Assembly: GCF_004745575.1 (NCBI RefSeq)
Contig: NZ_RPEM01000017.1
Location: 1 to 38,310 of the forward strand
Direction: 5' to 3'
DNA length: 38,310 bases
Origin: Pseudotabrizicola sediminis
Lineage (GTDB): Bacteria; Pseudomonadota; Alphaproteobacteria; Rhodobacterales; Rhodobacteraceae
In this document: positions 6,699-23,326 of the stretch, piece by piece
How positions within the stretch are numbered: the stretch's first letter is position 1
How the letters are laid out: each line of letters opens with the position of its first letter
The notes under the pieces: model-generated
What the model was told of the DNA's origin: nothing
Database searches by the model: none
Seen by the model: the letters and a program-made list of their open reading frames with translations, nothing else
Made by a program: the position numbers and the translations under genes

Positions 6699-6839
6699 AC
6701 CTTGGGCGTCACGCGGGACGGCGTGCGGGAGGTGCTGGGCCTGTGGATTGTAGAGAATGAAGGCGCCAAGTTCTGGCTGTCGGTGCTGAGTGAGCTGAAC
6801 GACGAACTGATCGACCTTTTTGACAAATCACGTCGTTGA
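6699..6839 (+). pseudogene. IS256/mutator-family transposase fragment
   Basis: The frame 6699-6800 encodes TLGVTRDGVREVLGLWIVEN followed by EGAKFWLSVLSELN. This is the signature stretch of IS256-type (mutator) transposases, where the G-x-x-x-DG-x-x-EVLG-x-W and EGAKFW pieces are conserved. Only about 34 residues remain; then the homology stops and 13 unrelated residues lead to a stop at 6837-6839. It has no start, catalytic triad or inverted repeats. It marks an old insertion or deletion between the HlyD operon and the thiol-redox genes. Confidence 0.75.
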
Positions 6840-6858
6840 GCGGCACACGGAGATGCCC

Positions 6859-7647
6859 ATGACCAGCATGACGACCAACCACGCAGACGTCCACACCAGC
6901 ACCACCAGCCGCGCCGTGATCTACCGCATGCTGATGACCGAGCATATCTGCCCCTCTGGACAGAAGGCGCTCGATCTATTGAAGCGCCGGGGGTTCGAGG
7001 TGGAAGACCATCTTCTGCGTTCGTGCGAAGAAACCGACGCCTTCAAGGCCAAGCATGCGGTTCAGACCACGCCGCAAGTTTGGATCGGGGGCGAGCGGGT
7101 CGGCGGCCACGATGCCCCGCGTCGGCATCTCAGTCTTGCGGTCCATGACCGGCAGGCGCTGACCTACAAGCCGGTGATCGCGATCCCGGCGATGGCCGCA
7201 ACTCTGGCATTGGTCGTCGCCTGGAGCATGATGGGCGGGGCGAGGGCGCTCTTGTCCATCCACACGCTCCAGCTCTTCCTCGGCTTTGCCACGGCGCTCC
7301 TCGCGCTGCAAAAGCTGCGGGATGTCGAAACCTTCAGCAGCGGCTTTCTTGGCTATGACCTGCTTGCGCAGAAATGGCCGCGCTACGCCTATGTCTATCC
7401 CTGGGCAGAGGCGTTGGTTGGCCTGCTGATGATCGCGGGCACCCTGATCTGGTTGATGGTCCCGATCGCCCTGTTCATCGGCAGTATCGGCGCAGTTTCG
7501 GTGTTCAAGGCCGTCTACATTGATGAGCGCGAACTCAAGTGTGCCTGCGTCGGCGGCAACTCGAACGTGCCCCTTGGGTTTGTGTCGCTGACCGAAAATC
7601 TGGTGATGATCGGCATGGCCGTCTGGATGCTTCTCTGGGCAATGTAA
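6859..7647 (+). CDS. Glutaredoxin-MauE/DoxX-like membrane fusion protein
   Basis: 262 aa from the ATG at 6859, which has GGAG six bases upstream; earlier in-frame ATGs (6820, 6853) have poorer sites. Residues about 18-95 are a glutaredoxin-like domain with CPSG (C31-G34) and the TTPQVWIGGERVGG substrate-loop motif. From about 105 on there are four membrane helices of the MauE family, ending with a KCACVGG cysteine pair that resembles the redox-active Cys pair of MauE. MauE proteins pass electrons across the membrane or help disulfide formation. The fusion suggests electrons flow between cytosolic glutathione or thioredoxin and periplasmic thiols. It precedes the thioredoxin and DsbA genes. 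Function inferred from domains. Confidence 0.85.
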   Translation: MTSMTTNHADVHTSTTSRAVIYRMLMTEHICPSGQKALDLLKRRGFEVEDHLLRSCEETDAFKAKHAVQTTPQVWIGGERVGGHDAPRRHLSLAVHDRQALTYKPVIAIPAMAATLALVVAWSMMGGARALLSIHTLQLFLGFATALLALQKLRDVETFSSGFLGYDLLAQKWPRYAYVYPWAEALVGLLMIAGTLIWLMVPIALFIGSIGAVSVFKAVYIDERELKCACVGGNSNVPLGFVSLTENLVMIGMAVWMLLWAM

Positions 7648-7656
7648 CGCCGGAGG

Positions 7657-7908
7657 ATCGACATCGATCACACCCATCAAGGTGTTCTCCCGGGGGCACC
7701 ATTTTTTCTTGCGCTGCACCTTACGGCAACGGACTGCGCCTTCGAGTCTGCGACCCTCGACCTTGCCCGTTCGTGGTTGGATGCGAGAGCCGATCCACCC
7801 GAACTTCCTGCAATCGCGCATAAGTTGTGGAATGGTGCCCGCTCGAATTGGACCAGTGCAGGCCGCAAAGCTGTCGTCTGCCGCCTTGTAATCCTAAGGT
7901 TCGCTTAA
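7657..7908 (+). pseudogene. Start-less open frame after mauE-like gene
   Basis: This frame follows the TAA of the glutaredoxin-MauE gene in phase and stays open for 84 codons to a TAA at 7906-7908. It reads like protein (for example TLDLARSWLDARADPPELPA) but has no ATG, GTG or TTG near the front. A GGAGG (7652-7656) stands six bases before an ATC at 7663, exactly where a start should be. The stop codon lies inside the second half of the CTTAAG box. I recognise no family. It may be a gene that lost its start codon, or a chance frame. Confidence 0.3.
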
Positions 7909-7909
7909 G
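7893..7909 (+). promoter_or_regulatory. CTTAAG-N5-CTTAAG box A (response-regulator site)
   Basis: CCTAAG (7893-7898), spacer GTTCG, CTTAAG (7904-7909). Apart from one mismatch this is the same direct repeat as boxes B and C and closely matches known PmrA/QseB boxes. It ends 22 bases before an ATG at 7932 and 75 bases before the thioredoxin-fusion start at 7985. Confidence 0.7.
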
Positions 7910-7931
7910 GAGACTGGACCAAAGGGGCACC

Positions 7932-7988
7932 ATGAGCCTGATGATACGTCCTTCTTATCCCCGTTGTGGCGCGATGGTGTCGCCATGA
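7932..7988 (+). CDS. Short upstream ORF (18 aa) overlapping the thioredoxin gene
   Basis: Encodes MSLMIRPSYPRCGAMVSP. Its TGA (7986-7988) overlaps the ATG of the next gene (7985), giving an ATGA junction. The AGGGG eight bases before the ATG is a possible ribosome site. The gap between box A and this ATG is 22 bases, the same as between box C and the dsbD ATG, which suggests 7932 is a real start or the transcript start. It could couple translation of the thioredoxin fusion. It could also be a chance frame. Confidence 0.35.
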   Translation: MSLMIRPSYPRCGAMVSP

Positions 7989-8791
7989 TCGGAGTCAATC
8001 TCGGGCCCTTTGTCTTTGGAGCCGACCGCGTTGTTGCCATCGCGGCCGCCTTTGCCTTTCTGGCCTGCCTTGGCTTCTGGGGCTGGTGGACGCGGCGCAA
8101 CGACAACCCATTCGACGTGCCGGGTTATGCGGTCTTGGTCGGGTGGATGCTGGCGGCTCGGGTCGGTTTCGTGCTGATGCACCGCGATATCTTCGCTGAC
8201 CATCCGTTGGATATCCTTGCGGTCTGGCAGGGCGGCTTTTCCCCTGTTGCCGGGCTGGTGGGTGCGGCGGGTGTGATCTGCTGGGTGGGCCTGCGCGCCC
8301 TGCGGACCATCCTGCCGCTGGCCACCGCTGCCGCGTTTTCCGCCGCGACTGCGACTCTGGTGCCCGCGCTGCTCCCGCCGCCCGGTGCCGACAGCCTGCC
8401 GAATATGACATTTCAAATGGCCGACGGGACGCCCGTATCGCTGGCCGATGGCGACCCCCGTCCGCTGGTCGTGAACCTTTGGGCCACATGGTGCCCGCCT
8501 TGTCGGCGCGAGCTGCCGATGATGATGCACGTTGCGGCGGCCAATCCGGATGCCCGGATCATATTTGCCAATCAGGGTGAGGCACTTTCAGACGTGCGGC
8601 ACTTCTTGGATCTTGTCGGGCTGCCGCAGACCGGCATCCTGATGGATCACGGCAGCGACCTGATGCGCCATTTCGAGGCACCAGGCCTGCCGACCACTCT
8701 GTTTTTTGATGCCAAGGGCAATTTGACCGACGCCGTCACCGGCGAAGTGTCGCGTGCCGCTCTTGTCGCCGGCATCGCCAACGCCCGCTGA
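7985..8791 (+). CDS. Lgt-like membrane domain fused to thioredoxin-fold (TlpA-like) protein
   Basis: 268 aa. Residues 1 to about 125 hold several membrane helices resembling part of prolipoprotein diacylglyceryl transferase (GWMLAARVGFVLMHR, then HPLDILAVWQGGFSP). The catalytic H-G-G-L of Lgt is replaced by S-P-V-A-G-L, so transferase activity is unlikely. Residues about 135-268 are a TlpA/ResA-type thioredoxin fold with the active site WCPPC (C170, C173) and a cis-Pro loop GLPTTLF. The membrane part probably anchors a periplasmic reductase. The gene follows box A and precedes the DsbA-like gene by 25 bases. The ATG at 7985 is preferred over a TTG at 7964 because of the ATGA overlap and the position of the first helix. 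Confidence 0.85.
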   Translation: MIGVNLGPFVFGADRVVAIAAAFAFLACLGFWGWWTRRNDNPFDVPGYAVLVGWMLAARVGFVLMHRDIFADHPLDILAVWQGGFSPVAGLVGAAGVICWVGLRALRTILPLATAAAFSAATATLVPALLPPPGADSLPNMTFQMADGTPVSLADGDPRPLVVNLWATWCPPCRRELPMMMHVAAANPDARIIFANQGEALSDVRHFLDLVGLPQTGILMDHGSDLMRHFEAPGLPTTLFFDAKGNLTDAVTGEVSRAALVAGIANAR

Positions 8792-8816
8792 TATCCAACC
8801 TGACAAAGGAACCCCC

Positions 8817-9422
8817 ATGCCATTGACCAGACGCACCATGATCGCTTTCGGGACCGCAAGTCTCTTGCTCCCACACATCGCCAAAGCCCAAGACCGGCAA
8901 CTGACACCGGACGCGGTATTCTACGACCCCGATGCACCCGTGTTGGGCAATCTGGAAGGCGATGTGAGCATTGCCGAATACTTCGACTACCAATGCCCCT
9001 ACTGCAAGGCGGGACACCCGGACCTCATGGACGTGGTCACAACCGACGGCAATGTGCGTCTGGTGTTGAAAGACTGGCCGATCCTCAGCGCCGCTTCGAT
9101 CTATGCCAGCCAACTTGGACTGGGCGCGGTTGATCTTGGAGTTTACGACGCGGTCAATCACGCCCTCATGCAGACCACCGGGCGGCTTAGCGAGGACGTG
9201 GTTGATACCGCTGTCGCAACCGTCGTCGAGCCGGAAGCTGCACTGCAGGCATATCGAGACAACCGATCGACCTGGGATGCACTGCTGAAACGCAATCAAC
9301 AGCAGGCCGCAGCCTTCGGGTTCGGGGGCACACCCGCCTTTGTGATCGGCACGACGATCTATGCGGGCGGACTTGACCGCCAAGCGTTGGAAAATGCGAT
9401 CGCCGCCGCACGCAAAGCCTGA
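8817..9422 (+). CDS. DsbA-family thiol-disulfide oxidoreductase
   Basis: 201 aa from the ATG at 8817 with AAAGGA upstream; the frame is open to 8754 but that overlaps the previous gene. An N-terminal export signal (LTRRTMIAFGTASLLLPHIAKAQ, cleaved near 24) contains a twin-arginine-like RR. The thioredoxin fold has CPYC (C60-C63) after IAEYFDYQ and the cis-Pro loop GGTPAFVIG. The helical insert is the size usual for BdbD/DsbA-like proteins such as those of Com1 type. It would oxidise or isomerise periplasmic thiols. It lies in one unit with the Lgt-like/thioredoxin fusion. Confidence 0.92.
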   Translation: MPLTRRTMIAFGTASLLLPHIAKAQDRQLTPDAVFYDPDAPVLGNLEGDVSIAEYFDYQCPYCKAGHPDLMDVVTTDGNVRLVLKDWPILSAASIYASQLGLGAVDLGVYDAVNHALMQTTGRLSEDVVDTAVATVVEPEAALQAYRDNRSTWDALLKRNQQQAAAFGFGGTPAFVIGTTIYAGGLDRQALENAIAAARKA

Positions 9423-9853
9423 AGTCTTCGGAATTAACGTTCATGGCTGCTGGAAACGAAAGGACTTACGAAGTATCGAGGGCAGGCAATGTATCTTCGT
9501 GCTGCCAGTCCCTTATCCAACTGTCCTTTCACACTTCATCGGGGGATACGTGTCGACGACGAAAAGCGCTGCGACGAACGGGGTGCCCGACTGCGGCATC
9601 CTCTGACATCATTCTGTGACCGCTGGGCGGGCAGGCGGGGAGTCAGGCCAAGACAAACCTCTCCGATTTTCGTGTTGCCGACCAACGGCCGACAGTCCCG
9701 AGCATGGCCCGGTAGATGACACCCAGACGTGCAGGAAGCAGCCTGCGTTCCGGGGGGCTGAGGTTTTACTAGGGTCATCCGTCATCCAGCAACGCCCGCT
9801 CGGGACCGGCGCCACCATAACCTGCCTTAAGAATCACTCTGACGACGGCGTGC
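9423..9853. other. 431-base gap without a recognisable gene
   Basis: Between the DsbA-like gene and the end of the nucleotidase gene. Several overlapping frames up to about 100 codons exist but none has a credible ribosome site or a recognised motif. A single CTTAAG half-site is at 9826-9831, preceded by CCTGC, the same five bases as the spacer of box B; no second half is seen. The sequence may be decayed insertion-element DNA, but I cannot name one. Confidence 0.4.
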
Positions 9854-11326
9854 CTAGACGATGCGCACCCGGCCAAGACCGGGTTGCACCGCATTTGCAG
9901 GATCGGAGAACCACGCCTGCAAGGCCGCAATGGCGCTGATCTCCAGATCGCGTCGCTGGCTGCCCATGCTGGCAGGAATGCCCTGCGCGGTTATGAAGGC
10001 CACGGGATAGATCGCTGCGGGGTCGATGCGCCCGTTCCGGGTAAAGACCTGCTCGATCCGGTTTCCCTTGGGGTTTTCCAGCTTCGCATTCACCGTCAAG
10101 CCGCGAAACCGCTTCACGAACCCGCCTCGCTGACCGAACGGATCGGCGCTGAAGGTGCTTTCCAGATTGGCCTCCAGCATGGAGATGATTTCGGCCCCCA
10201 TCAGATCGACAGTCGAAACCGGCGGATTTGTTGGGACGATGTTCCAAAGGTCATTCAAGGTGACGGGACCGGCCGGAATGGGCGCGCCGTAGCGCCACCC
10301 GTTCGAAAAGGCGATTTCCGTGCCTGCTGCGAGCGCGGTGGCTGCCAGCAGGGCGTCATCCATGGGCGCGTCAAGCGACGTGGCCCGATGCAACGCAACT
10401 TCAGTCCGGCCCACGATCTGTGCCTGAAGCGGGCGCGTGCTGGCCATCGCGGCCTCGACCAGTTCTTGCATCGTGGGATCGGGGGCGATGCTGTCGTCTA
10501 CGGGGATCAGACGGTGGCGAAAACCGGCAACCCTGCCGCCCTCAACCTGCAGATCAAGCCGGCCGACATATGACCCGTGGCACCCAGACTGAATCAGCAA
10601 TGCCCCGTTCACCTGCGCCGGAACCTCGACCCGATTGTGGGTATGCCCGCTAAGGATGACGTCAATGCCGTCAACCATGCCTGCAAGGGCAACATCCTGC
10701 GGGTAGCCAAGGTGCGACAGCACCACCACCAGATCCGCCCCATCGGCCCGCAGACGCGCCGCCTCTGCGCGGGTTTCTTCGATGCCATCGGTAAATCGCA
10801 TGCCCTCTGCGAAGCTTGGCGGCATCGTCTTGTCGAGGATGGTTGCGGCGATGCCGATCACCCCGACTTTCAGGCCACCGGCCATGCACATCAGGGTGGC
10901 CGGGAAGGGTCGGCTGCCATCGGAAATAGCTGTGCAGTTCGCAGCCAGAAACGGATGGTGCAGCGCGGCCGCCAGATCCTGCACATGCGCGGGTCCCCAT
11001 GCGAAATCCCAGTGTCCGGTCATGGCCGCCAACCCAAGCCCGTTTATTGTTGGCAACAGCCCCTCTCCCTCGGTCGTTACTGCGGCGTAAGTCCCGTGAA
11101 AGGTGTCGCCGTTGTCGAAGGCCAGAACGGCCCCGCCTTCCGCCCGCACCGTATCGAACAGGGTCTTTATCCGGGCAAATCCGCCCAACAGCGGAAACTC
11201 CGGCCCATCCTGCGACCAGACCAGTTCGGGATGCGGTTCCAGATAGCCGTGGGTATCATTGATCTGTAGCAGAGTCAGGCGGTGGTCGTCCTTCGACCCG
11301 GCGGTGGACTTTGGATCAGTCTGCAT
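9854..11326 (-). CDS. SoxB-like bifunctional metallophosphatase/5'-nucleotidase
   Basis: 490 aa from the ATG at 11326, whose AAGG lies about ten bases upstream; the open frame extends to 11458 but the extra residues look non-native. The calcineurin-like half shows INDTHG (22-27), DNGDTFHG (71-78), GHWDFAWG (104-111) and, further on, LSHLGYP and SGHTHNR, all metal-site motifs. The GHW[DE]F form in place of GNHE, and the C-terminal SADPFGQRGGFVKRFRGL stretch, are closer to SoxB thiosulfohydrolases than to UshA. No signal peptide is visible, although SoxB and UshA are normally exported. It may cleave nucleotides or a sulfur-linked substrate; the sequence does not decide. Confidence 0.85.
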   Translation of the reverse strand: MQTDPKSTAGSKDDHRLTLLQINDTHGYLEPHPELVWSQDGPEFPLLGGFARIKTLFDTVRAEGGAVLAFDNGDTFHGTYAAVTTEGEGLLPTINGLGLAAMTGHWDFAWGPAHVQDLAAALHHPFLAANCTAISDGSRPFPATLMCMAGGLKVGVIGIAATILDKTMPPSFAEGMRFTDGIEETRAEAARLRADGADLVVVLSHLGYPQDVALAGMVDGIDVILSGHTHNRVEVPAQVNGALLIQSGCHGSYVGRLDLQVEGGRVAGFRHRLIPVDDSIAPDPTMQELVEAAMASTRPLQAQIVGRTEVALHRATSLDAPMDDALLAATALAAGTEIAFSNGWRYGAPIPAGPVTLNDLWNIVPTNPPVSTVDLMGAEIISMLEANLESTFSADPFGQRGGFVKRFRGLTVNAKLENPKGNRIEQVFTRNGRIDPAAIYPVAFITAQGIPASMGSQRRDLEISAIAALQAWFSDPANAVQPGLGRVRIV

Positions 11327-11469
11327 TTGGACAAGACCTTGCTGGCCCGGGATTATTTGACGCCGCACGGAAACAACCACGTTCAGGGCTCCGAACCACT
11401 CAGGGAACGCGGTCCGGGCTATCAGAGTTCCCCGTGGTATTGCGAACGGTGGGAACAAACCGCTGCGAC

Positions 11470-11486
11470 CTTAAGCCTGCCTTAAG
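11470..11486. promoter_or_regulatory. CTTAAG-N5-CTTAAG box B (response-regulator site)
   Basis: Perfect direct repeat CTTAAG-CCTGC-CTTAAG. Because CTTAAG is its own reverse complement, the box can serve either strand. It lies between the divergent nucleotidase gene (start 11326) and the copper-ATPase remnant (from about 11560), 143 bases from the former. Confidence 0.75.
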
Positions 11487-11557
11487 CCGTTCAGCGGAAC
11501 CAACGCACCAAATGCCGTGTTGCACGCTGGCAAGGGCAACCGCGATTCAACCTCTGA

Positions 11558-12286
11558 TTGGAAAACTCCTTAATGCCCGTCACGCTTGGTCTTCTATTGA
11601 CGCTCAGGGTCAGCGTGGGCACCGCATGTGTGTCGGTCGGTGACATGACATGGCTTGATGTGCATCGCGATGACCAACTGGTCGGTCGCATCGCACTGCA
11701 GGACGTTCCGAAACCGGGGGCGAAAGAGACGATAAGGGCTTGGCGTCGCCTTGGCGTGGCCACCGTGATGGCGACCGGCGACAGCAGCGAGCCTGCCATA
11801 GCCTTTGGCAAGATGCTCGGCTTCGATCCCGACACCATCCACTCCGGTCTGACCCCTCAGGACAAGGTTCGTCTAGTCGAAGCCAGTCCCCGCCCCGTCA
11901 TGTTCGTCGGCGACGGTGTGAACGACGGACCCGCGCTGGCCGCCTCGGACTGCGGGGTATCGGTGGCCGAGGCGCACGCGGCCGCAGCGCAGACGGCCGA
12001 TCTGGTAGTCGTGTGGGGGGGACTAGAGATGCTTCTCGCCGCCCGGACATTGGCACGGCGGACCATCGCCATAGGCCAGCAGAACATCGCGCTCGCGCTT
12101 GTATACAACGCCCTTGCGGTTCCGGCGGCGCTCTTGGGTGTTCTGACACCGACAGGTGCCACGATCGCCATGCTGCTGAGTTCGATGTCAGTCAGTGCCA
12201 ATACGCTGCGGTTAAGATCTTCCGACACAATCTCATCAGCAGAATTTCAGCGAATAGAACCTGGGACAGGGCTTCATCGGAATTGA
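11558..12286 (+). pseudogene. C-terminal remnant of a Cu(+) P1B-type ATPase
   Basis: 242 codons, of which about 30 onward align with the end of a heavy-metal P-type ATPase: the hinge (VMATGDSSEPA), GDGVNDGPALAASD, and two last helices with YN (in ALVYNALAVP) and MxxSS (in AMLLSSMSV). The YN and MxxSS pairs are Cu(+) ligands in CopA-type P1B-1 pumps, which identifies the metal. The metal-binding domains, first six helices, TGE domain, DKTGT phosphorylation site and nucleotide-binding N domain are all missing, so it cannot pump. TGDN is changed to TGDS. The TTG start and the first 25 or so residues look fortuitous. Deletion of the 5' part probably happened near 11500-11640. Confidence 0.85.
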
Positions 12287-12629
12287 TCTCGCCGCAGCAG
12301 AACACGGTTACTTTCGGATCAACCGCGCGAGTCCTGGCCTGACGTGCATTCATTGGTCACCGATTCACGCAAGCTGGGCGCAGGACCCATTGATTGGGTT
12401 GAGGCCGTCTGTTCTCCGTCATCGTTCATGCGCACCAGGCCCCAAGCTGACGGCCAAACGGAAATCTGGCGTCTTGTTGTTTTTTTCGCGCAGAACCAAC
12501 CCGGGCAAACGTTCAGTTTACCCTGCGATTTGAGCCCTGTGACCCTTCCCTCCCGCGAAACCTGATGTCTTCAGACTGGGTTAAGGTTTGCGGCGGAAGA
12601 AAGTGCAGAACAACTGAAAGAAGCTATCC
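12287..12629. other. 343-base gap, no supported gene
   Basis: Holds one frame of 73 codons (12344-12565) with no recognised motif, which I do not support as a gene. The last 60 bases carry the degenerate CTTAAG-type box D and the leader of the L,D-transpeptidase gene. Confidence 0.4.
12569..12585 (+). promoter_or_regulatory. Degenerate CTTAAG-type box D
   Basis: CTTCAG-ACTGG-GTTAAG: each half has one mismatch to CTTAAG and the five-base spacing is kept. It lies 44 bases before the first L,D-transpeptidase ATG. Alone it would be weak evidence; the three better copies nearby make it worth listing. Confidence 0.4.
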
Positions 12630-13172
12630 ATGACCCACACATATCATCGTCGGACACTGCTTGTTGGCGGAGCCGCTGCTCTGACAGCGCTTGCTACACC
12701 GAGCCTGGCGCAGCAGGTCCGCAACATCGGCGCCTTTCGCACCCACGCCTGGCAAGACCATTTCGAGAGCTTGCGCGTCGGCGCCATCGTTGCCGATACA
12801 GAGTCAAGGGCGCTCCACTTCTGGAACGCCGATGTCAGCGATTACCGCGTCTACCCGACCTCTGTTCCAATAAGCGAAGAGTTGACCCGCCGCGGCTACA
12901 CCGAAATCGTGCGGAAGCGGGTTGGCCCGGACTGGACGCCAACCCAGTCGCAACGTGAGCGCTTTGGATGGGAATATATTCCGGCGGGTCCGGAAAGCCC
13001 GATGGGTACGCATGCCATGTATCTCACCTGGCCTGCCTATGCGGTCCACGGCACACACGACTCCCGCAAGATCGGCAGACCTTCGTCCGACGGCTGTATC
13101 GGACTCTATATTGAAAAGATCGCCGAACTTTTCGCGTTGTGCCCTGTCGGTGTCCAAGTGCGTATCATTTGA
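12630..13172 (+). CDS. L,D-transpeptidase (YkuD family), exported, first of tandem pair
   Basis: 180 aa. The N-terminus HRRTLLVGGAAALTALATPSLAQ is a Tat-like or Sec signal, cleaved near 28. The YkuD catalytic region has H140 (AVHGTHD) and C156 in SSDGCIGLY, matching HGT-x(n)-S-x-GC-[IV]. Such enzymes make 3-3 cross-links in peptidoglycan or attach outer-membrane proteins or lipoproteins to it. Start chosen for the signal peptide; AAGAAGC precedes it. A second homologous gene follows after 11 bases, forming an operon that box D may control. The catalytic Cys must be kept reduced in the periplasm, which links it to the DsbD and thioredoxin genes here. Confidence 0.92.
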   Translation: MTHTYHRRTLLVGGAAALTALATPSLAQQVRNIGAFRTHAWQDHFESLRVGAIVADTESRALHFWNADVSDYRVYPTSVPISEELTRRGYTEIVRKRVGPDWTPTQSQRERFGWEYIPAGPESPMGTHAMYLTWPAYAVHGTHDSRKIGRPSSDGCIGLYIEKIAELFALCPVGVQVRII

Positions 13173-13183
13173 AGGCAAACAGC

Positions 13184-13768
13184 ATGAACCGCAGAACATT
13201 CATCGCAGGCAGCGCCGCTGCGGGACTGGCCCATCCCTTGGCGGCGCAGATCCCTCAACCACCAATGGCCCCGCATACCGTCAATCTGACCAACGAATAC
13301 CCTGTCGGCCAGATCCACGTCGCTCCTGACAGTTTCCAGCTCTTTTGGACGCTGGGTGGCGGACAGGCACGGGTCTATCAGATCCGCATTGGCCGTGATG
13401 ACCTTTATGAGCAGGGCGAGTTCTATGTGGGGGCAAAGAAGGAATGGCCCGCGTGGACCCCGACCCCCGGTATGATCGAACGCGAGCCAGAGCGATATGC
13501 CCGGTATGCCGATGGTGGTATGGAAGGCGGGCCAGGCAATCCCATGGGTGCCCGAGCGCTATATCTGTTTCAGGAAGGCCGTGGCGACACCTTTCTGCGC
13601 ATCCATGGAACAGATGATCCCGCCAGCATCGGGCAGGCTGTTTCCAACGGTTGCGCAGGTCTGACAAATGAACACATCGTCGATCTCTATGAACTGGTGC
13701 CGCTCGGCACACCCGTGTTCCTGCACTCCAAGACACGGTCCGACGCGTTCCAGCCGGCCGCACGCTGA
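13184..13768 (+). CDS. L,D-transpeptidase (YkuD family), exported, second of tandem pair
   Basis: 194 aa from the ATG at 13184 (GAAGG upstream); the frame is open to 13139 but that would overlap the previous gene. It has a twin-arginine-like signal, NRRTFIAGSAAAGLAHPLAAQ, cleaved near 22. YkuD motif residues are H141 (RIHGTDD) and C157 (SNGCAGL). The mature part has the same order of blocks as the upstream paralogue (FWTLGGGQARVYQI, EWPAWTPTPGMIEREPERY, NPMGARALYLF), but identity is modest. This suggests an old duplication and perhaps different acyl donors. Short C-terminal tail of Arg/Ala. Confidence 0.92.
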   Translation: MNRRTFIAGSAAAGLAHPLAAQIPQPPMAPHTVNLTNEYPVGQIHVAPDSFQLFWTLGGGQARVYQIRIGRDDLYEQGEFYVGAKKEWPAWTPTPGMIEREPERYARYADGGMEGGPGNPMGARALYLFQEGRGDTFLRIHGTDDPASIGQAVSNGCAGLTNEHIVDLYELVPLGTPVFLHSKTRSDAFQPAAR

Positions 13769-13935
13769 TCTCGGGTTTTTGTCGGTCATCTCTTTACGCC
13801 CGATGCCGCACAATGCTCTGACTGACTGGACCCTTAAGGTCCTGAACTGCCATGAGGCCGAACTGAAGGACGGCACTGCCGACGCCGGCCAATCGGCTCT
13901 GATCGTTATGATATCGAGCCGCCCTGCCGGAGCCG

Positions 13936-15330
13936 TCAGATGGTCCGCAGGGCCGCATGCGGGAGTGTCACTGTCGCTGTCTCTCCGCCACCCGGACGCG
14001 GCGTGAGGGTCAGGACTCCACCGATGCGGTCCAGGGCAGTCTTGACAATGGAAAGGCCCAGCCCGCTGCCCTCCAAACCGCCGACTGCGCCCCGGTAAAA
14101 TCGGTCTGTAACCCGATTCCGGTCCACTGCGGCAATTCCCGGGCCCCGGTCGCTAACCGTGCAGCACCAGTCCACCCCTGTCTGGTGCCACGACACTTCA
14201 ACCTCGCCCCCGTCAGGGGATGCCTGAATTGCGTTCTCCATCAAATTGCGTAGCGCGGCCGCGACAAGGAACTGCGGAGCATGAATCCCCGGTGTGTCGT
14301 CCGGTCCGTCGAGAACGATGCTGACGTTCCGACCGCGCGCCAGTGCGGCCAGGTTATCGGCAACCTCTGCCAGGATGTCATGCAGAGCTGCCGTTTCAAC
14401 CTCGTCGTTAAGGTCTTGCGGAACGGAATCTACCGACGCCATGTCGAGAAGCTGCCGCACCATCCGGTCGGTGCGGTCTACCCCCCGTATCAGACGCGTC
14501 AAGGCGTCCTGACGCGTGGCCGCATCCGGGGCCATCGCGGCAATCTGTGCTTGCGTCTTCAGCCCCGCCAGCGGTGTCTTGAGTTCGTGCGCGGCAAAGG
14601 CCGTAAAATTGCGCTCATGCTCGCGCGCTTCCGACAGACGGCGGAACAGGTCGTTCAAGGCGATGGACACGGGCCGGATCTCGCGCGGCACCGGGGTCGC
14701 GGGCAGGGGCGACAGGTCCGTCGCCGGACGTCCGCCCAACGCCCGCGCCATTTGGTCCAGCGGCACCAGTCCACGCCCGACGCTGGCCCAGATCAGCCCT
14801 GCCAGCAGTGGCAAGATCACGGCAGCGGGAAGCAGAAGACCGGCGATCACACCGTTCACCAGCCGGTTGCGCACCTCCATGCTGTCGCCAACCATCACGC
14901 GCACGCCAAGGTCATGATTGACCACCGAATAGACCCGCCATTCCACACCGTCCACGATGTTCTGGCTGAACCCATCTGTCTCTTGCGCCAACGGGCGCGC
15001 GGGCGCGTGACCGGACTGCCCGACCAGCGTGCCATCAAGCGACCAAATCTGGCATGACAACTGGTGCGAATACCCGTCAGCCGTGTCAAAGGTCTCGGGT
15101 TGGGCCAACGCAGCCGCCTGCGCCACATCAACGCGCCGATCCGAAATCAACGACGACACCATGCGCGCCGCCTCGGACAGCCGCGCGTCCAGCACCCGTT
15201 CGACCTCGGCGCGGGTGGAGTGGTTGATCCAGACAACGGCCGACAGCAAGAGCGCGCTGGTTGCCGCCAACAGGATCAGGAACAGCCGCGTCCGGAGCGA
15301 GATCGGATTCTTGATCTGCGCGCGCCTCAT
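13936..15330 (-). CDS. Sensor histidine kinase, QseC/PmrB type
   Basis: 464 aa from the ATG at 15330, which overlaps the stop of the response-regulator gene (ATGA). The longer open frame to 15462 is antisense to no support and rejected. Helix 1 is about 15-37 (LFLILLAATSALLLSAVVWI), followed by a periplasmic sensor of about 115 residues resembling the 2CSK_N domain of QseC/PmrB, helix 2 (about 155-185), HAMP-like linker, HisKA with FAAHELKTPLAG, and HATPase_c with N box NLMENAIQASPDGG, DRGPGI and GSGLGLSIV. The sensor contains a Cys (LSCQIWS) of possible redox interest. It phosphorylates the adjacent regulator in response to an unknown envelope signal. Confidence 0.93.
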   Translation of the reverse strand: MRRAQIKNPISLRTRLFLILLAATSALLLSAVVWINHSTRAEVERVLDARLSEAARMVSSLISDRRVDVAQAAALAQPETFDTADGYSHQLSCQIWSLDGTLVGQSGHAPARPLAQETDGFSQNIVDGVEWRVYSVVNHDLGVRVMVGDSMEVRNRLVNGVIAGLLLPAAVILPLLAGLIWASVGRGLVPLDQMARALGGRPATDLSPLPATPVPREIRPVSIALNDLFRRLSEAREHERNFTAFAAHELKTPLAGLKTQAQIAAMAPDAATRQDALTRLIRGVDRTDRMVRQLLDMASVDSVPQDLNDEVETAALHDILAEVADNLAALARGRNVSIVLDGPDDTPGIHAPQFLVAAALRNLMENAIQASPDGGEVEVSWHQTGVDWCCTVSDRGPGIAAVDRNRVTDRFYRGAVGGLEGSGLGLSIVKTALDRIGGVLTLTPRPGGGETATVTLPHAALRTI

Positions 15331-16001
15331 GCGTCCGCCCCGGCTGGGCGCGCCAGGCGGTAGCCGGCCCCGCGCACGGTTTCGATGAAGGCTGCCCCCA
15401 GTTTGGTGCGCAGGTTGTGAACATGCACCTCGACCGTGTTGCTTTCGACATCCTCCTGCCATCCGTAAAGCCGCTCTTCCAGCGTGGACTTTCCGATGAT
15501 CGTGCCGGGCCGTTCCATAAGTGCGCGCAGGATGGTGAACTCGCGTCTTGAGAACCTCAGATTGCGTCCGTCGCGCGTGCCTTCCATGGCCGCAGGGTCC
15601 AGATCCAGACCGTTCCAGATCATGTGGCCTGCGGCCCGTCCCTCACTACGTCGCAGGATTGCCCGCAACCGCGCGGCCAGTTCGGGCAGATCGAAGGGTT
15701 TGCCGAGATAGTCGTCGGCCCCCGCATCCAACCCGGTCACCCGGTCATGGCTACGGTCGCGGGCCGTCAGCAGCAGCACTGGCAAGATCGATCCCGCAGC
15801 GCGCAGGCGCGCCAGCACGTCGAGGCCAGACCCGTCCGGCAACATCAGATCCAGAACCATGCCGTCAAAACCGCCGGTTTCCAACGCGGCATCCGCGTCC
15901 GCGCGGGTTGCCACGCTGTCACAGGTGAATCCTGCCAACCGCAGACCGACAGCCAACCCTTCGCGCAACATCTCGTCATCCTCGACTATCAAAAGCCGCA
16001 T
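15327..16001 (-). CDS. OmpR/QseB-family response regulator
   Basis: 224 aa. Receiver domain with acidic pocket EDD (7-9), phospho-acceptor D51 in MVLDLMLPDG, T/S at LLTARD and K in LGKPFDLPEL. C-terminal winged helix (about 125-220) with FSRREFTILRALMERPG and NTVEVHVHNLRTKLG, typical of the OmpR/PhoB fold. QseB and PmrA regulators of this subfamily bind CTTAA-type direct repeats; box C lies 44 bases upstream of this gene and shared with divergent dsbD, so autoregulation is likely. GGAG (6-9 bases before the ATG) is a good ribosome site. Confidence 0.95.
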   Translation of the reverse strand: MRLLIVEDDEMLREGLAVGLRLAGFTCDSVATRADADAALETGGFDGMVLDLMLPDGSGLDVLARLRAAGSILPVLLLTARDRSHDRVTGLDAGADDYLGKPFDLPELAARLRAILRRSEGRAAGHMIWNGLDLDPAAMEGTRDGRNLRFSRREFTILRALMERPGTIIGKSTLEERLYGWQEDVESNTVEVHVHNLRTKLGAAFIETVRGAGYRLARPAGADA

Positions 16002-16044
16002 TGTGAACTCCTATTGGCCGTTCGGGGCTGTTTGCTTTCTCTGC

Positions 16045-16061
16045 CTTAAGTCTGACTTAAG
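16045..16061. promoter_or_regulatory. CTTAAG-N5-CTTAAG box C (response-regulator site)
   Basis: Perfect repeat CTTAAG-TCTGA-CTTAAG in the intergenic region between the two-component genes (minus) and dsbD (plus). The gap to the dsbD ATG at 16084 is 22 bases, with AAGAAT in it as a possible -10 element. This would give an almost leaderless dsbD mRNA. Confidence 0.78.
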
Positions 16062-16083: not shown

Positions 16084-17940
16084 ATGACAAATCATTCAGC
16101 ACATTCACTCCGCACCCGGATGGGTCATTTGCTTCAACTGGCCCTGACGCTTTTCCTGGGTCTGACGCTAGCCGTGATCGCGATGCCGCTTCAGGCCCAG
16201 CCGCAAGGCTTCGCCGCTTTTGATACCCAGACCTCGGCGCGTTCCACTCCCTTGCCGCAGGAAAAGGCTTTCGTTCCCACCGTCCTGCGCAATGAGGACG
16301 GTGAGATGACCATAACCTGGCAGATCGCCCAAGGCTATTATCTGTATCGGGCTTACACGACAGCGGAGGCGGCAGATGGCACACCGGTTCCGCTGGACAT
16401 GCCGCAGGGTATCATCAAAGACGACCCGACTTTTGGCGCCTCCGAAGTGTATTATACTTGGCTCAGTGTCCGGGTTCCGCCCGGCACTGGACCATTCGAC
16501 CTGACCTGGCAAGGTTGCCAGGAAGACGGGTTGTGCTATCCACCGGTCACCCGTGCAATTTCTGGAGACGGGGACTTCATCGACGGTCCCCTGCTCGCTG
16601 ACACGGACACCGCGCCGCGCTCGAACGGGATGATCCTTGCAGATCAGGGGGACGGCATGGTGGCCGAAATGGCTACACGTGGCGGCCCGGCGCTGGTGCT
16701 GGTGAGCTTTCTCGGCCTTGGCCTTTTGCTGGCCTTCACGCCTTGTGTGTTTCCGATGTTCCCAATCCTTGCAGGGATGCTGGCCCGGCAGGGCGAATCC
16801 CTGACACCCGCACGCGGTGCGATGCTGTCGGGCACCTATGTTATCGCGATGGCCGCAGCCTTCGGTCTGCTGGGGATGGTTGCGGCATGGTCCGGACAGA
16901 ACCTGCAAATCGCGCTCCAATCGCCGCTGGCGCTGGGGATTGTGGCGGGCATCTTCGTGCTGCTGGCCCTGTCGATGTTCGGCCTGTTCAACATCCAACT
17001 GCCTGCTGCCATGACCGAACGCTTGTCGCGGATGGGCACCAGCCAGCGCGGATCGGTTGGCGGCGCGGCCTTGCTGGGCTTCAGCTCTGCCCTGATCGTC
17101 GGGCCATGCGTGACAGCGCCGCTGGCGGGTGGATTGCTTTATATCGCGCAGACCGGGGACGTGGCACTGGGGGCCGGTGCGCTGTTTGCCCTGGGCCTGG
17201 GTCAGGGGATACCCCTGTTTGTCGCAGGCACCTTCGGTGCGCGCGTGCTGCCACGCGCCGGGGCCTGGATGGACGGGGCAAAGCGCATCTTTGGCTTCGT
17301 CTTTCTGGGCATGGCGATCTGGCTCGGTGCCCGACTGGTTCCGGGACCGGTGGAACTGGTGCTGTGGGCGGTGCTGCTGATTGCTGTAGCGGTTTTTCTT
17401 GGTGCGACAGACCGCAGAACCCTCGTATCCCCAGCACAGGAGCGGATGGGAAAGGGGCTGGGCCGCACCCTTGGCCTGTCCGCCCTTCTCGGTGGTGTGG
17501 TCCTCGCTGTCGGTGCCGCTATGGGTAACGATGATCCTCTGCGGCCACTGGCCGGATTTCGGGCCGGTGAGGTCGCCATGACAGATCGCATAGTCACCGC
17601 AGAGGTGACCAGCACGACGCAACTTGCTGCAGTTCTGTCGCAGGTTACAGGATCGGCAGTGGTCTATGTGACTGCGGAGTGGTGTGTGACCTGTCGGACA
17701 ATTGACCGGCAGGTGCTGCCCGACACGGGCGTGCAGGCGGCGCTGGACGGGCTGACGCTGATCAAGGTCGATGTCACTGATACCGGACCAGAGAGCCAGG
17801 CTGTGCTTGCTGATCTGGGGGCGGTAGGGCCGCCAACAATGATCTTTCTGGACGCGTCACGGTCCGAGGTCGCCGAAACCCGCCTCATCGGAAAGGTGAC
17901 GGTCGAGACGCTTACGCAATCGGCGCGGGCCCTGCAATAA
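16084..17940 (+). CDS. dsbD: DsbD, thiol:disulfide interchange protein
   Basis: 618 aa from the ATG at 16084; an in-frame ATG at 16063 would touch box C and has no ribosome site. Signal peptide to about residue 39 (LFLGLTLAVIAMPLQAQ). The N-terminal immunoglobulin-like domain has its Cys pair C145 and C151 (GCQEDGLCYPP). The central eight-helix domain has TPCVFPM and GPCVTAP, the pair that carries electrons across the membrane. The C-terminal thioredoxin domain has WCVTC. This is the full three-domain DsbD that moves reducing power from cytosolic thioredoxin to periplasmic partners, here probably the thioredoxin fusion and the L,D-transpeptidases. Linked to the divergent two-component system through box C. 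Confidence 0.96.
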   Translation: MTNHSAHSLRTRMGHLLQLALTLFLGLTLAVIAMPLQAQPQGFAAFDTQTSARSTPLPQEKAFVPTVLRNEDGEMTITWQIAQGYYLYRAYTTAEAADGTPVPLDMPQGIIKDDPTFGASEVYYTWLSVRVPPGTGPFDLTWQGCQEDGLCYPPVTRAISGDGDFIDGPLLADTDTAPRSNGMILADQGDGMVAEMATRGGPALVLVSFLGLGLLLAFTPCVFPMFPILAGMLARQGESLTPARGAMLSGTYVIAMAAAFGLLGMVAAWSGQNLQIALQSPLALGIVAGIFVLLALSMFGLFNIQLPAAMTERLSRMGTSQRGSVGGAALLGFSSALIVGPCVTAPLAGGLLYIAQTGDVALGAGALFALGLGQGIPLFVAGTFGARVLPRAGAWMDGAKRIFGFVFLGMAIWLGARLVPGPVELVLWAVLLIAVAVFLGATDRRTLVSPAQERMGKGLGRTLGLSALLGGVVLAVGAAMGNDDPLRPLAGFRAGEVAMTDRIVTAEVTSTTQLAAVLSQVTGSAVVYVTAEWCVTCRTIDRQVLPDTGVQAALDGLTLIKVDVTDTGPESQAVLADLGAVGPPTMIFLDASRSEVAETRLIGKVTVETLTQSARALQ

Positions 17941-19658: not shown

Positions 19659-22193
19659 CTATCTGGACCGGCGGGTTTTCAGCGGCACTTGCGCTGAATG
19701 AAAACCCTCCCATGCATCTGTGGACATCATCGCAAGGCGGTTCGGCAGATTGGTGAGCGTGAAATGGTCGGGGCCGATGTCCAGGCCCAGTTCTTCCCAG
19801 CGGATCGGGGCCGACACCGCCGCACCCGGCCTTGCGCGGGTGGAATAGGCGGCGACCGCTGTGGCGCCGCGCTGGTTGCGCAGATAGTCGATCAGGATCT
19901 TCCCCTTGCGCTTCGCCTTGGCGACGGTCGCCACATAGCGGTCCGGCGCATCGGCGGCCATTGCCATGGCCATTGCCTTTGTAAAGGCTTTGACCTCTGG
20001 CCACAGCGCATGGGGTTTCAGCGGTGCCACCACATGCAGCCCCTTGCCGCCGGAGGTCTTTACAAAAGCTGTCAGGCCAGCGTCGGTAAGCCGCTGCCGG
20101 ATCTCTTGCGCGGCGTCGATGATACGCGACCAGCTGACGCCTTCGCCCGGGTCCAGATCCATGACGATGGTGTCGGGTCGGTCCCAGTCGGCAAGGCTCG
20201 CGCCCCATGGGTGAATTTCCAGCGCGGATGACTGGACCAAAGCAATAAGACCATCCAGATCGCTGATGCTGATCAACGGCTCTGATGCCGATTTGGGGTC
20301 TTGCGCCAGCGTGATATTTGGATTGATCCCTTTCCATGCATGTTTCTGGAAAAAGGCTGGTCCGCTGATCCCTTCAGGACAGCGCAACAAGGCTAGGGGC
20401 CTGTTCACGATATATGGCGCAATTTCACGCCAGACATCCGAGTAGTAATCCGCCAGTCCCTCTTTGGTGACCCCTTCATTCGGCCAATAGATGCGGTCGG
20501 GATGGGTCAGCTTTACGGTCCGACGAGGCGCAGCCCCAGCTTTGCTGGCTGTGCCTTCACGGATGATCTGCGCCGCCGGTTTGTCCTCGCGCAGGCCCCG
20601 GAACGAGGCGTGGCGCAGATTTCCATCTGCCGTCCAGGCGCGAAACTCGACCTCTGCCACCCGTTCGGGATGCACATAGCGCACCTTACTGGCCTGTGTT
20701 GCGGTCAGCGGCGCATCAAACGGGCTGGCGGAAAGGCCAAGCGGTTCTAGCCGGGTGAAAAGGTCCTGCGCAACCTTTGCGGTGAACCCGGTTCCGACAC
20801 GACCAACATGCTGCAAGGCGACCCCCTCATAGACACCGAGCACCAGCGAGCCGATGGCCTGACGCGAAGTGGTGGAGACGGTATACCCCCCGATCACAAA
20901 CTCCTGCCGGGCCGAGCATTTCGACTTGATCCAGCTTTTGCCGCGCCCGGCCCGATAGGGGCTGTCGGCCAGTTTAGAGATAATCCCCTCCAGACTGAGA
21001 CGGCAGGCATGGCGCAGCACCAGCGCCCCGCCCGCGTCGAAATGCGTGCTGTACCGCAGCGCCTGACTCGCATCTTTCAGCAGCGTTTCCAGTAGGGTCT
21101 TGCGCGACCGCAAAGGCAGGGCGCGCAGATCGTAGCCATCCAAAAACATCAGGTCAAAAGCGTAGAACACAAACCGATCCGATCGCCCCTCGCTCAGATC
21201 GGCCTGAAGCGTCGGGAAATCCGACGCACCGGACTTCGTTTCGACCACCACCTCGCCGTCAATGATCGCCTGATCCAAGGGCAGACGGGAGATGGCCTCG
21301 GTGACCTGTTTGCCAAAGCGATCAGTCCAGTCCAGCCCGCTGCGGGTCAGCAAGCTGACCTTGCCGGAATCTATTCTGGCCTGCAGGCGGTAGCCGTCAA
21401 ATTTGATCTCATGCAGCCATCGCTCTCCCGCCGGAGCCGAGGGCGCCAGGGTGGCCAGCATCGGCGTAATGAAATCGGGTATCTCCGCCATCTTTGCCGC
21501 CTCGAATCGGGCCGGGCTCAGGTCGGGCCCATCGTCTTCGGGCCGAGAGTCCTGAGACTGAGATCCGGGGGAATGAGTTTCGGGCTGTTTCCGACGGCGC
21601 GCGGGGGCTACCTTTACCGGTGTAGCACCGGACGCGGCCACTTCGTCAATGCCGCGCCCGGTTTTCACCGAGTCTGGCCGCTCGATCAGAATGTCGGGCG
21701 CATCCCCGGCGCGGGCGGCGTCATCATCGGCCTTGATCAGCAGCCAGTTTTCCCGCTTTTCATCCGCCTTGCCCTGCATGCGCACCAGATGCCAGCGGCC
21801 ACCCAGTTTTTCGCCGGACAGTTCAAATTCCAGATGCCCCTTGGAATAGCCTCTTGCCGCGTCGCCGATGGCGGACCATGTTCCGCGATCCCAGACGATG
21901 ACCGTGCCTGCGCCATATTCCCCCTTGGGGATCGTTCCTTCGAAATCGCCATAGGACATCGGGTGGTCTTCGACATGCACTGCCAGCCGCTTTTCGCCGG
22001 TTACAAGGCTTGGCCCCCGTGTCACCGCCCAACTGCGCAACACGCCCTCCATCTCCAGCCGCAGATCATAGTGCAGGCGCCGGGCGGCGTGCTTCTGAAT
22101 GACAAAACTGCTGCCACCCTTTCGGGCGCGTCTGCCCTTGGGCTCAGGCGTGGCTTTAAAATTGCGCTTCTGATTATACTCCTCCAGCGGCAT
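19659..22193 (-). CDS. ligD: DNA ligase D (PE-LIG-POL)
   Basis: 844 aa, a multifunctional end-joining enzyme. Domain order is 3'-phosphoesterase (about 1-170; FVIQKHAARRLHYDLRLE and HPMSYGDFEGTIPKG), ATP-dependent ligase (about 240-530; adenylation Lys264 in EIKFDGYR, DGEVVV, EGIISK, SPYRAGRGKSWIKSK) and primase-polymerase (about 555-840; DLDP at 679-682, SGGKGLHVV at 714-722). This order is common in alphaproteobacteria and Pseudomonas and differs from the POL-first order of mycobacteria. A Pro/Arg/Ser-rich linker lies between PE and LIG. The gene starts two bases after the ku stop, so the two are co-transcribed. With Ku it repairs double-strand breaks without a template. Confidence 0.96.
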   Translation of the reverse strand: MPLEEYNQKRNFKATPEPKGRRARKGGSSFVIQKHAARRLHYDLRLEMEGVLRSWAVTRGPSLVTGEKRLAVHVEDHPMSYGDFEGTIPKGEYGAGTVIVWDRGTWSAIGDAARGYSKGHLEFELSGEKLGGRWHLVRMQGKADEKRENWLLIKADDDAARAGDAPDILIERPDSVKTGRGIDEVAASGATPVKVAPARRRKQPETHSPGSQSQDSRPEDDGPDLSPARFEAAKMAEIPDFITPMLATLAPSAPAGERWLHEIKFDGYRLQARIDSGKVSLLTRSGLDWTDRFGKQVTEAISRLPLDQAIIDGEVVVETKSGASDFPTLQADLSEGRSDRFVFYAFDLMFLDGYDLRALPLRSRKTLLETLLKDASQALRYSTHFDAGGALVLRHACRLSLEGIISKLADSPYRAGRGKSWIKSKCSARQEFVIGGYTVSTTSRQAIGSLVLGVYEGVALQHVGRVGTGFTAKVAQDLFTRLEPLGLSASPFDAPLTATQASKVRYVHPERVAEVEFRAWTADGNLRHASFRGLREDKPAAQIIREGTASKAGAAPRRTVKLTHPDRIYWPNEGVTKEGLADYYSDVWREIAPYIVNRPLALLRCPEGISGPAFFQKHAWKGINPNITLAQDPKSASEPLISISDLDGLIALVQSSALEIHPWGASLADWDRPDTIVMDLDPGEGVSWSRIIDAAQEIRQRLTDAGLTAFVKTSGGKGLHVVAPLKPHALWPEVKAFTKAMAMAMAADAPDRYVATVAKAKRKGKILIDYLRNQRGATAVAAYSTRARPGAAVSAPIRWEELGLDIGPDHFTLTNLPNRLAMMSTDAWEGFHSAQVPLKTRRSR

Positions 22194-22195
22194 CT

Positions 22196-23020
22196 CTAGC
22201 CCGCCTTGCGTCTGGGCCGGTCAGACTTTTTCGCCGCTTTGGCCTTGTCGGTCTTGGCGCTTTCGCGCAGCGCTTCCATAAGATCGACAACTTTTTCCCG
22301 CTTTGCCGCCGGGCGCGGGGCGATCTTGCGCCCTTCGGTCTTTGCCTTGACCAGATCGGCAAGGGCGGTTTCATAGCGGTCATCAAAGCTGGCAGGGTCG
22401 AATGACCCCATCTTCGTCTTGATGATATGGCGCGCCAGATCCAGCATTTCCGGATCGATCTTGGTTTCGGCGATGGACTTGAATGCATCCTCCGCCGCCC
22501 GCACCTCGTAATCAAAGTTCAGCGTTGTCGCGATCAGCCCGTTGCCATGGGCGCGGATCAGTACTGTCCGCATCCGGCGGAACAGGACCGTGCGGGCAAT
22601 CGCCGCCACTTTTGACCGGGCAAGGCCTTCGCGGATCAGGACAAAGGCCTCTTTGGCGGGGCCGTCTGACGGGGCAAGGTAGTAGGGCTTGTCGAAGTAG
22701 ACATCATCCACCTCGCCGCAGGGCAAAAAAGCCTCGACCGCCATCACCTTGTCACTGTCGGGGATCGCCGCTGCGACCTCTTCCGGCGTCAGCACAATAT
22801 GCTCACCTGGAGAGGTTTCATACCCTTTGACCTGATCTTCACGCGGGACCGGCTTTCCCGTTTCGCTGTCCACAAATTCCCGCTGAACCCGGTTTCCAGA
22901 GGCACGGTTGATAGTGTGAAAGGAAATCCGTTCCGAGGTGGAGGCCGCCGTGTAAAGCGCAACGGGGCATGATACCTCGGCAATTTTCAGGAATCCTTTC
23001 CAGTTTGCCCTTGGGGCCAT
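22196..23020 (-). CDS. ku: Ku protein (NHEJ), ligD-linked copy
   Basis: 274 aa. The start MAPRANWKGFLKIAEVSCPV is typical of bacterial Ku, followed by the beta-barrel core (ISFHTINRASGNRVQREFVD, VKGYE, LTPEE) and the bridge region ending near 200. The C-terminal tail is Lys/Arg-rich (KTDKAKAAKKSDRPRRKAG), the extension that in bacterial Ku binds DNA and recruits LigD. It forms a homodimer ring on DNA ends. It is the first gene of ku-ligD, two bases apart. A second, different Ku gene lies divergently at 23832; alphaproteobacteria with two Ku genes may form heterodimers. Confidence 0.96.
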   Translation of the reverse strand: MAPRANWKGFLKIAEVSCPVALYTAASTSERISFHTINRASGNRVQREFVDSETGKPVPREDQVKGYETSPGEHIVLTPEEVAAAIPDSDKVMAVEAFLPCGEVDDVYFDKPYYLAPSDGPAKEAFVLIREGLARSKVAAIARTVLFRRMRTVLIRAHGNGLIATTLNFDYEVRAAEDAFKSIAETKIDPEMLDLARHIIKTKMGSFDPASFDDRYETALADLVKAKTEGRKIAPRPAAKREKVVDLMEALRESAKTDKAKAAKKSDRPRRKAG

Positions 23021-23089
23021 GTCGATCTCCGTCCGGATTGCCGCAATTGGGGAGGGTGGGGAAGTATTCCGATGCGTTATAAAATGCCT

Positions 23090-23326
23090 TCACGGCAACA
23101 GGATTGAGGGAATGCCAAGACAGGCCCGCAAGGCCGCCGCCGTTCTTTGATTGGAACTGCGATCTGAAAGGGCGGTGCAGTCAACCGCTTCCCCTTCGGC
23201 GATGGCAAAGGCTGCATCCTTGTCGGCGGTCAGGCCGACAACCTTCGCATCGCACCGCTCCAGCGTTTCCGCGATCTGCAGGGCGATATGGAGGTCATTT
23301 TCGAGGATCAGAACTTTTTTGGTCAC
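23090..23326 (-). pseudogene. Degenerate CheY-like receiver domain
   Basis: From a GTG at 23326 the frame reads VTKKVLILENDLHIALQIAE and so on, the first half of a receiver domain (EN-D acidic pair, first helix, VGLTADKDAAFAIAE). The expected phospho-Asp strand (usually DVNLNG) appears as DCTALSDRSSNQ and the domain breaks off after 78 residues at GIPSILLP. It lacks the conserved Asp in context, the T/S strand and the Lys. Stand-alone receivers of this type are common in Rhizobiales and Rhodobacterales. I judge it a truncated, non-functional gene. The long upstream extension to 23581 is not supported. Confidence 0.6.

Follow-up and report, generated by a model that had tools for sequence, protein, structure and literature searches.

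Which regulator, and which signal, govern the periplasmic redox and cell-wall genes that stand beside a two-component system in Pseudotabrizicola sediminis? The question is raised by contig NZ_RPEM01000017.1 (38,310 nucleotides; this whole stretch is called the window below), in which a preliminary description had noted direct repeats of the form CTTAAG-N5-CTTAAG, termed boxes here, and had proposed that a QseBC/PmrAB-like kinase and its regulator act through them on one local regulon. Compared across relatives, the sites, their tie to the regulator, their position, the promoter layout and an invariant cysteine of the kinase together point to an alphaproteobacterial regulon of the DsbRS type, a reading to which we give a probability of about 0.7. 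All four repeats were present as placed:

Box 1, 7893-7909, plus strand: CCTAAGGTTCGCTTAAG, CCTAAG-N5-CTTAAG with 1 mismatch; precedes a leader open reading frame (ORF), the lgt/tlpA fusion and dsbA.
Box 2, 11470-11486, no strand assigned: CTTAAGCCTGCCTTAAG, exact; separates the SoxB-like gene from the ATPase remnant, and in relatives an orphan ccoN lies on its plus side.
Box 3, 12569-12585, plus strand: CTTCAGACTGGGTTAAG, degenerate, 2 mismatches; precedes ykuD1.
Box 4, 16045-16061, no strand assigned: CTTAAGTCTGACTTAAG, exact; between the divergent regulator gene and dsbD.

In the whole 4.04-Mb genome, two exact copies and one copy with a single mismatch were found, all 3 within this 8.2 kb. 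The 16 two-mismatch copies comprise box 3 and 15 sites elsewhere (14 regions); a further regulon at these last, which were scanned for position only, was set aside. With as many as 3 mismatches allowed, the window does not stand out (7 copies against a shuffle mean of 4.41, with 14 of 100 shuffles reaching 7), so the evidence rests on the good copies. A reversed pattern (GAATTC halves) was even commoner than the box, both in this genome (84 vs 19, 2 mismatches being allowed) and in 8 genomes (52 vs 28, 1 mismatch being allowed); raw counts therefore prove nothing, and the argument is one of place and co-occurrence. Altering the spacer in 8 regulator-bearing genomes, again at up to 1 mismatch, left a single site with 4 bases against 28 sites with 5.

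The boxes have the make-up of a PmrA-type site, namely two TTAA-type halves, head to tail, with a 5-bp spacer; excerpts of PMC3973317 give CTTAAG and NTTAAT halves, 5 bp apart, for PmrA itself. The degenerate box 3 ends 44 nt before ykuD1, carries an A at position 12 past its end (see below) and has counterparts at the same place in relatives, and its genuine membership is supported by this comparison. At locus L185 (10009-10036), two exact boxes overlap, giving three halves in 11-bp register.

Boxes and regulator across the family

Relatives of the regulator (60-87% identity) were found in 19 other genomes of the family, which with the window's own makes 20 of 394 genomes and 20 genera of 393. 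The exact box occurs in 25 of the 394, and 18 of these also hold the regulator; it is thus present in 18/20 genomes with the regulator and in 7/374 without it (Fisher P = 1.6e-23, uncorrected for kinship). Place follows the same division, as 21 of the 22 exact boxes in the 18 regulator genomes precede regulon genes, and none of the 8 in the 7 regulator-free genomes does (Fisher P = 1.5e-6). The two regulator genomes lacking an exact box carry weaker ones, with one mismatch before the regulator and a YkuD gene in G205, and with two mismatches before the regulator in G272. G135, the sole genome sampled from the same genus, has neither regulator nor exact box, and the system therefore looks accessory. 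Among 80 named loci of the ykuD1 type, 11 have the regulator (at least 60% identity) nearby, 10 of them with an exact box (not L057), while a box with up to 1 mismatch was found in 5 of the other 69 (L056, L062, L071, L073 and L112).

For gene-by-gene comparison, 28 family loci were assembled, consisting of the window itself, the regulator loci of the 19 other genomes and 8 named loci out of 11; L070, L114 and L126 were left out as they match G234, G288 and G262. Boxed loci with no regulator close by (L046, L049, L056, L062, L071, L073, L112 and L168) stand outside the tallies, and outside the family the sample consisted of the best 20 of 79 genomes with a match (G742 not included). In 22/28 family loci, the 200 bp upstream of the regulator gene hold a box with no more than 1 mismatch. 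Boxes of this quality also precede dsbD (13), ykuD1 (8), genes of the YkuD lipoprotein type (5), an orphan ccoN (4), SoxB-like genes (3), dsbA (2) and the lgt/tlpA fusion (2), divergent genes that share one box being both counted and starts being estimated by alignment; for 3 further boxes, none of these genes lies within 260 bp. The comparison in relatives proposed earlier hence found boxes again before the regulator, dsbD, tlpA-type and YkuD genes, with ccoN in addition. The co-occurrence of regulator and box, the conservation of box position and the promoter layout seen in relatives (below) give good support to one local regulon under the adjacent two-component system, which takes in the disulfide and YkuD genes and may extend to copper or sulfur genes.

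Promoter layout and sensor cysteine

The distance from box to dsbD is nearly constant, with an in-frame ATG 22 or 23 nt past the box in 13/13 family loci; a 14th dsbD, at L168 outside the tally, has its ATG 23 nt past a one-mismatch box, with an A at position 12. Counted in the direction of the gene, A at position 12 past the box (A12) occurs in 13/13 dsbD, 17/23 regulator and 17/24 other family promoters, i.e. in 47/60 pooled, whereas the positions beside it have A in 17% (binomial P = 4e-25, with no correction for kinship), and in 10/16 promoters outside the family. In the window it is found at boxes 1 and 3, on both sides of box 4 and on the plus side alone of box 2. If A12 is taken for the -11 A of a -10 element, transcription would start at the A of the dsbD ATG or one base before it and the box would lie at -39 to -23, which suggests an activator site overlapping the -35. 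PhoB- and PmrA-type activation shows the same layout, a box at -39 to -23 followed some 10 bp further on by the -10. A motif resembling a Shine-Dalgarno sequence (GGAG, GAGG or AGGA within 16 nt upstream of the ATG) was seen in 3/13 dsbD as opposed to 19/23 regulator genes, and the layout as a whole suggests that the dsbD mRNA is leaderless. The ATG 22 nt past box 1 begins a leader ORF of 18 codons, its stop codon overlapping the start that follows; locus L047 has a 20-codon leader ORF 23 nt after its box, with the same stop/start overlap and a sequence unlike that of the window.

In the kinase, a Cys stands at the same column (C-Q-[IV]-W) in 28/28 orthologues, where it is the only Cys of the periplasmic stretch, and in 0/21 family paralogues (the kinases found beside the next-best regulators). 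Outside the family, within the best 20 of 79, the same column holds Cys in 9 kinases, all 9 beside dsbD, tlpA, dsbA or ykuD genes, and Phe in 11, none of which has such a neighbour. At 6/9 of the Cys-kinase loci, and at 0/11 of the Phe-kinase loci, a box with no more than 1 mismatch stands in the 200 bp upstream of the regulator. Overall, 37 of the 69 kinases compared have Cys at this column, all 37 being of this type (P. aeruginosa DsbS lies outside the comparison), and on a quick tree of the 69 the Cys/other state requires a single change. A good AlphaFold model of the kinase (pLDDT 87) puts the Cys on a predicted strand at 92-98. The kinase most likely senses copper, or copper-provoked thiol damage, at this single residue. 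In the dsbD-linked kinase of L246, the Cys is residue 82 of the piece examined; by eye, that locus also shows, before dsbD (L246:4800-4900), a GGTTAATC-N3-GGTTAATC repeat with the 11-bp period of the boxes, a possible operator of the other type.

Genes of the window and their counterparts

The genes concerned are as follows:

Leader ORF of 18 codons, 7932..7988, plus strand: stop overlaps the next start (ATGA); read by translation.
Membrane (Lgt-like) and TlpA-type thioredoxin fusion, 7985..8791, plus strand: Pfam LGT, Redoxin and AhpC-TSA; NCBIfam TlpA 64.8 of 230.
DsbA-like protein, 8817..9422, plus strand: Pfam DSBA and Thioredoxin_4 (scan began at 8754).
SoxB-like metallophosphoesterase, 9854..11326, minus strand: Pfam Metallophos and 5_nucleotid_C; start uncertain, open frame to 11458.
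P1B-type ATPase, 3' remnant, 11558..12286, plus strand: tblastn, residues 506-694 of 719 at 11648-12214.
ykuD1, L,D-transpeptidase-like, motif SDGCIGL, 12630..13172, plus strand: Pfam YkuD and alignment.
ykuD2, L,D-transpeptidase-like, motif SNGCAGL, 13184..13768, plus strand: Pfam YkuD (scan began at 13139).
Histidine kinase with one periplasmic Cys (codon 15052-15054), 13936..15330, minus strand: Pfam 2CSK_N, HisKA and HATPase_c.
OmpR-class response regulator, 15327..16001, minus strand: Pfam; nearest NCBIfam model PmrA, nearest solved chains BasR.
dsbD, ATG 22 nt past box 4, 16084..17940, plus strand: NCBIfam PRK00293, 457 bits (cut-off 330).

Pfam and NCBIfam bear out the gene names given in the preliminary description, with three amendments: the nucleotidase is closest to SoxB, although its 291 bits against TIGR04486 (NCBIfam SoxB) fall under the 550 cut-off; the ATPase is a 3' remnant; and the YkuD proteins carry an unusual Gly. 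An intact relative of the ATPase, in G026, has HMA and E1-E2 domains and a CPC motif. In the nearest relative, G386 (L179), as in Paracoccus indicus (L074), the SoxB-like gene and ccoN diverge from one box, and in G386 a full P1B ATPase lies further along. Most likely, a deletion removed ccoN and the 5' portion of the ATPase from the window. Matches to Pfam COX1 and to NCBIfam ccoN (254 of 583 bits) identified the orphan ccoN, of which the window's genome holds only two homologues (36% and 32%). As to the copper handling suggested earlier, export by the remnant ATPase is unlikely. Next to these genes, a Glutaredoxin-MauE fusion (6820-7647) has no box, and a 55% relative of it adjoins the same system in L230, from another family. 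LigD and two Ku genes (19659-24629) adjoin the cluster; in L114 and L184, which are copies of the same region of a single genome, the kinase likewise has LigD and Ku next to it.

Canonical L,D-transpeptidases are defined by a YkuD domain, a catalytic Cys and an Arg two residues later. Both YkuD proteins of the window have the domain and the Cys, with Gly in place of the Arg (GCxG vs GCxR); the Arg is visible in structure 4lzh. An identity as 1,3-transpeptidases of the LDTGo type was discarded, as LDTGo retains the residue (Cys264/Arg266, in the available part of PMC10864386). Nor is the Gly peculiar to the regulon, since it occurs in 79/79 HGTHD-type motifs of the 80 named loci, most of which are boxless. 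With GCxG in all 79, the chemistry of these proteins may differ from that of known L,D-transpeptidases. The 3-3 cross-linking proposed in the preliminary description is at most a putative role for the pair in the window. The AlphaFold model of ykuD1 was unusable (pLDDT 39).

Nearest systems, rival explanations and meaning

The invariant periplasmic Cys, also present in dsb-linked kinases of other families, makes DsbRS the nearest system, rather than QseBC or PmrAB. Membership in either of the latter was rejected, all NCBIfam equivalog scores being under their cut-offs (PmrA 227 of 330, PmrB 161 of 314, QseB 203 of 345, QseC 233 of 475). What remains of the QseBC/PmrAB-like label is protein architecture, together with a likeness in box type; the nearest QseC-type sensors (QseBC/PreAB) have Phe rather than Cys, and the targets of these systems and of PmrAB (BasRS) are others. 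A sensor Cys may also be common to this system and DsbRS, where it would be Cys82 of DsbS. Copper stress is likewise tied to DsbD/DsbA-like proteins and L,D-transpeptidases in the ScsABCD and Cpx/LdtD systems of enterobacteria, albeit with other regulators and other operators, and copper is said, in a title by Peters from 2018, to inhibit peptidoglycan LD-transpeptidases. According to the passages available, binding of copper to DsbS of P. aeruginosa leads to induction of dsbDEG (PMC10141476, PMC9233671, PMC11195947), and in P. fluorescens dsbR and dsbD are divergent (PMC13101516). As far as these passages go, a kinase-regulator pair tied to a dsbD-tlpA/dsbE-dsbA/G unit is common to DsbRS and to the window and its relatives, although in the window tlpA and dsbA sit 7-8 kb from dsbD and not in the same operon. 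The system studied here differs in being alphaproteobacterial, in its predicted CTTAAG-N5-CTTAAG operator and probably leaderless dsbD, and in a regulon widened by YkuD enzymes and, in certain genomes, also by the orphan ccoN and the SoxB-like gene. No alphaproteobacterial DsbRS or operator of it was found in the literature searched, from whose scope subscription journals largely fell and in which queries rarely named the family. As DsbRS is already described, the earlier statement that this combination had no description is only partly true: the sensor type is known, and the DNA sign, the switch layout and the wider target set look new.

In the mechanism that we infer from sequence, which covers DNA binding, activation rather than repression, the leaderless start, the copper signal and the purpose of the YkuD enzymes, copper or copper-provoked thiol damage at the periplasmic Cys would alter phosphorylation of the OmpR-class regulator. 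The phosphorylated protein would bind the box head to tail, in 11-bp register, over the -35 (-39 to -23), and bring RNA polymerase to a weak -10, the A of which stands at position 12 after the box. In this way it would switch on its own gene, dsbD (the mRNA being leaderless), the unit of tlpA fusion and dsbA, and the YkuD enzymes, and in some relatives the orphan ccoN as well. The YkuD enzymes would be included because their catalytic Cys would require the same protection.

Several points weigh against this reading. Binding by the regulator and effects on expression are predictions from sequence comparison. In the kinase tree, L236 and the long-branched L246 attach to the remaining Cys kinases with a branch support of only 26, and neither locus has such a box. 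Outside the family the 22-23 nt spacing is absent (0/5 dsbD). A12 also occurs in 7/16 control boxes (genomes without the regulator, both directions), making the contrast with controls modest (Fisher P = 0.012), and it fails on the SoxB-like side (0/3) and in 6/23 regulator promoters. No box with up to 2 mismatches precedes the regulator in L043, L045, L048 and L050, whose genomes have boxes elsewhere; L057 and L187 have only a two-mismatch box there; and at L238, one of the Phe-kinase controls, two exact boxes lie apart from the regulator. Finally, there is no constant copper gene, a full-length P1B ATPase relative being near only 4/28 loci.

Of the alternatives, that the repeats arose by chance could appeal to the ordinary count at up to 3 mismatches and to the commoner reversed pattern, yet it is practically negligible beside the confinement of all three good copies to 8.2 kb, the near-total loss of sites with a 4-base spacer and the conservation of box position and flanks in relatives. 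Very improbable, too, is a view of the local pair as a mere neighbour of operators that belong to another PmrA/QseB-like regulator. The genome does encode further OmpR-class regulators (5 matches at 1e-30, the next best at 44% identity) and PmrA itself uses this type of box, but the boxes track the local regulator across the 394 genomes and precede its own gene in 22/28 loci. Repression from the boxes would equally suit a fixed distance between box and ATG, with the operator overlapping a promoter whose -10 is weak; we hold it improbable, as the -39 to -23 box with a -10 some 10 bp downstream has the activation layout described above, and DsbR activates in the cited passages.

The signal is where an alternative has most to draw on. 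With the same regulator and boxes, the kinase might respond to periplasmic thiol redox, sulfane sulfur or some other thiol-reactive agent instead of copper, its single Cys forming a disulfide or persulfide that DsbD, TlpA and DsbA would reset as feedback. The invariance of that one Cys, the thiol reductases among the commonest targets, the SoxB-like and orphan ccoN targets, which suit sulfur or respiratory chemistry, and the inconstant copper ATPase all fit such a signal; the described relative DsbS, however, binds copper as far as its accounts go, and we consider a non-copper signal rather unlikely. Beyond the DsbRS-type regulon itself, we offer tentatively, as a possibility short of even odds, that it is an accessory envelope-repair regulon of Alphaproteobacteria, in which the Cys kinase would couple disulfide reductases, Cys-dependent wall enzymes of the unusual GCxG type and a spare cbb3-type oxidase subunit, with a leaderless mRNA whose synthesis a box-bound activator would start. 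If so, dsbD would be translated without an untranslated leader under stress.

For the DsbRS type of sensor, these comparisons would provide a DNA signature, made up of the box, the A at position 12 and, in the family, an ATG at 22-23 nt. Combined with a one-residue marker in the kinase, the Cys, this signature would make the regulon predictable from sequence. The comparisons would also tie Cys-dependent enzymes of the cell wall, as well as an orphan subunit of an oxidase, to stress by copper or thiols.

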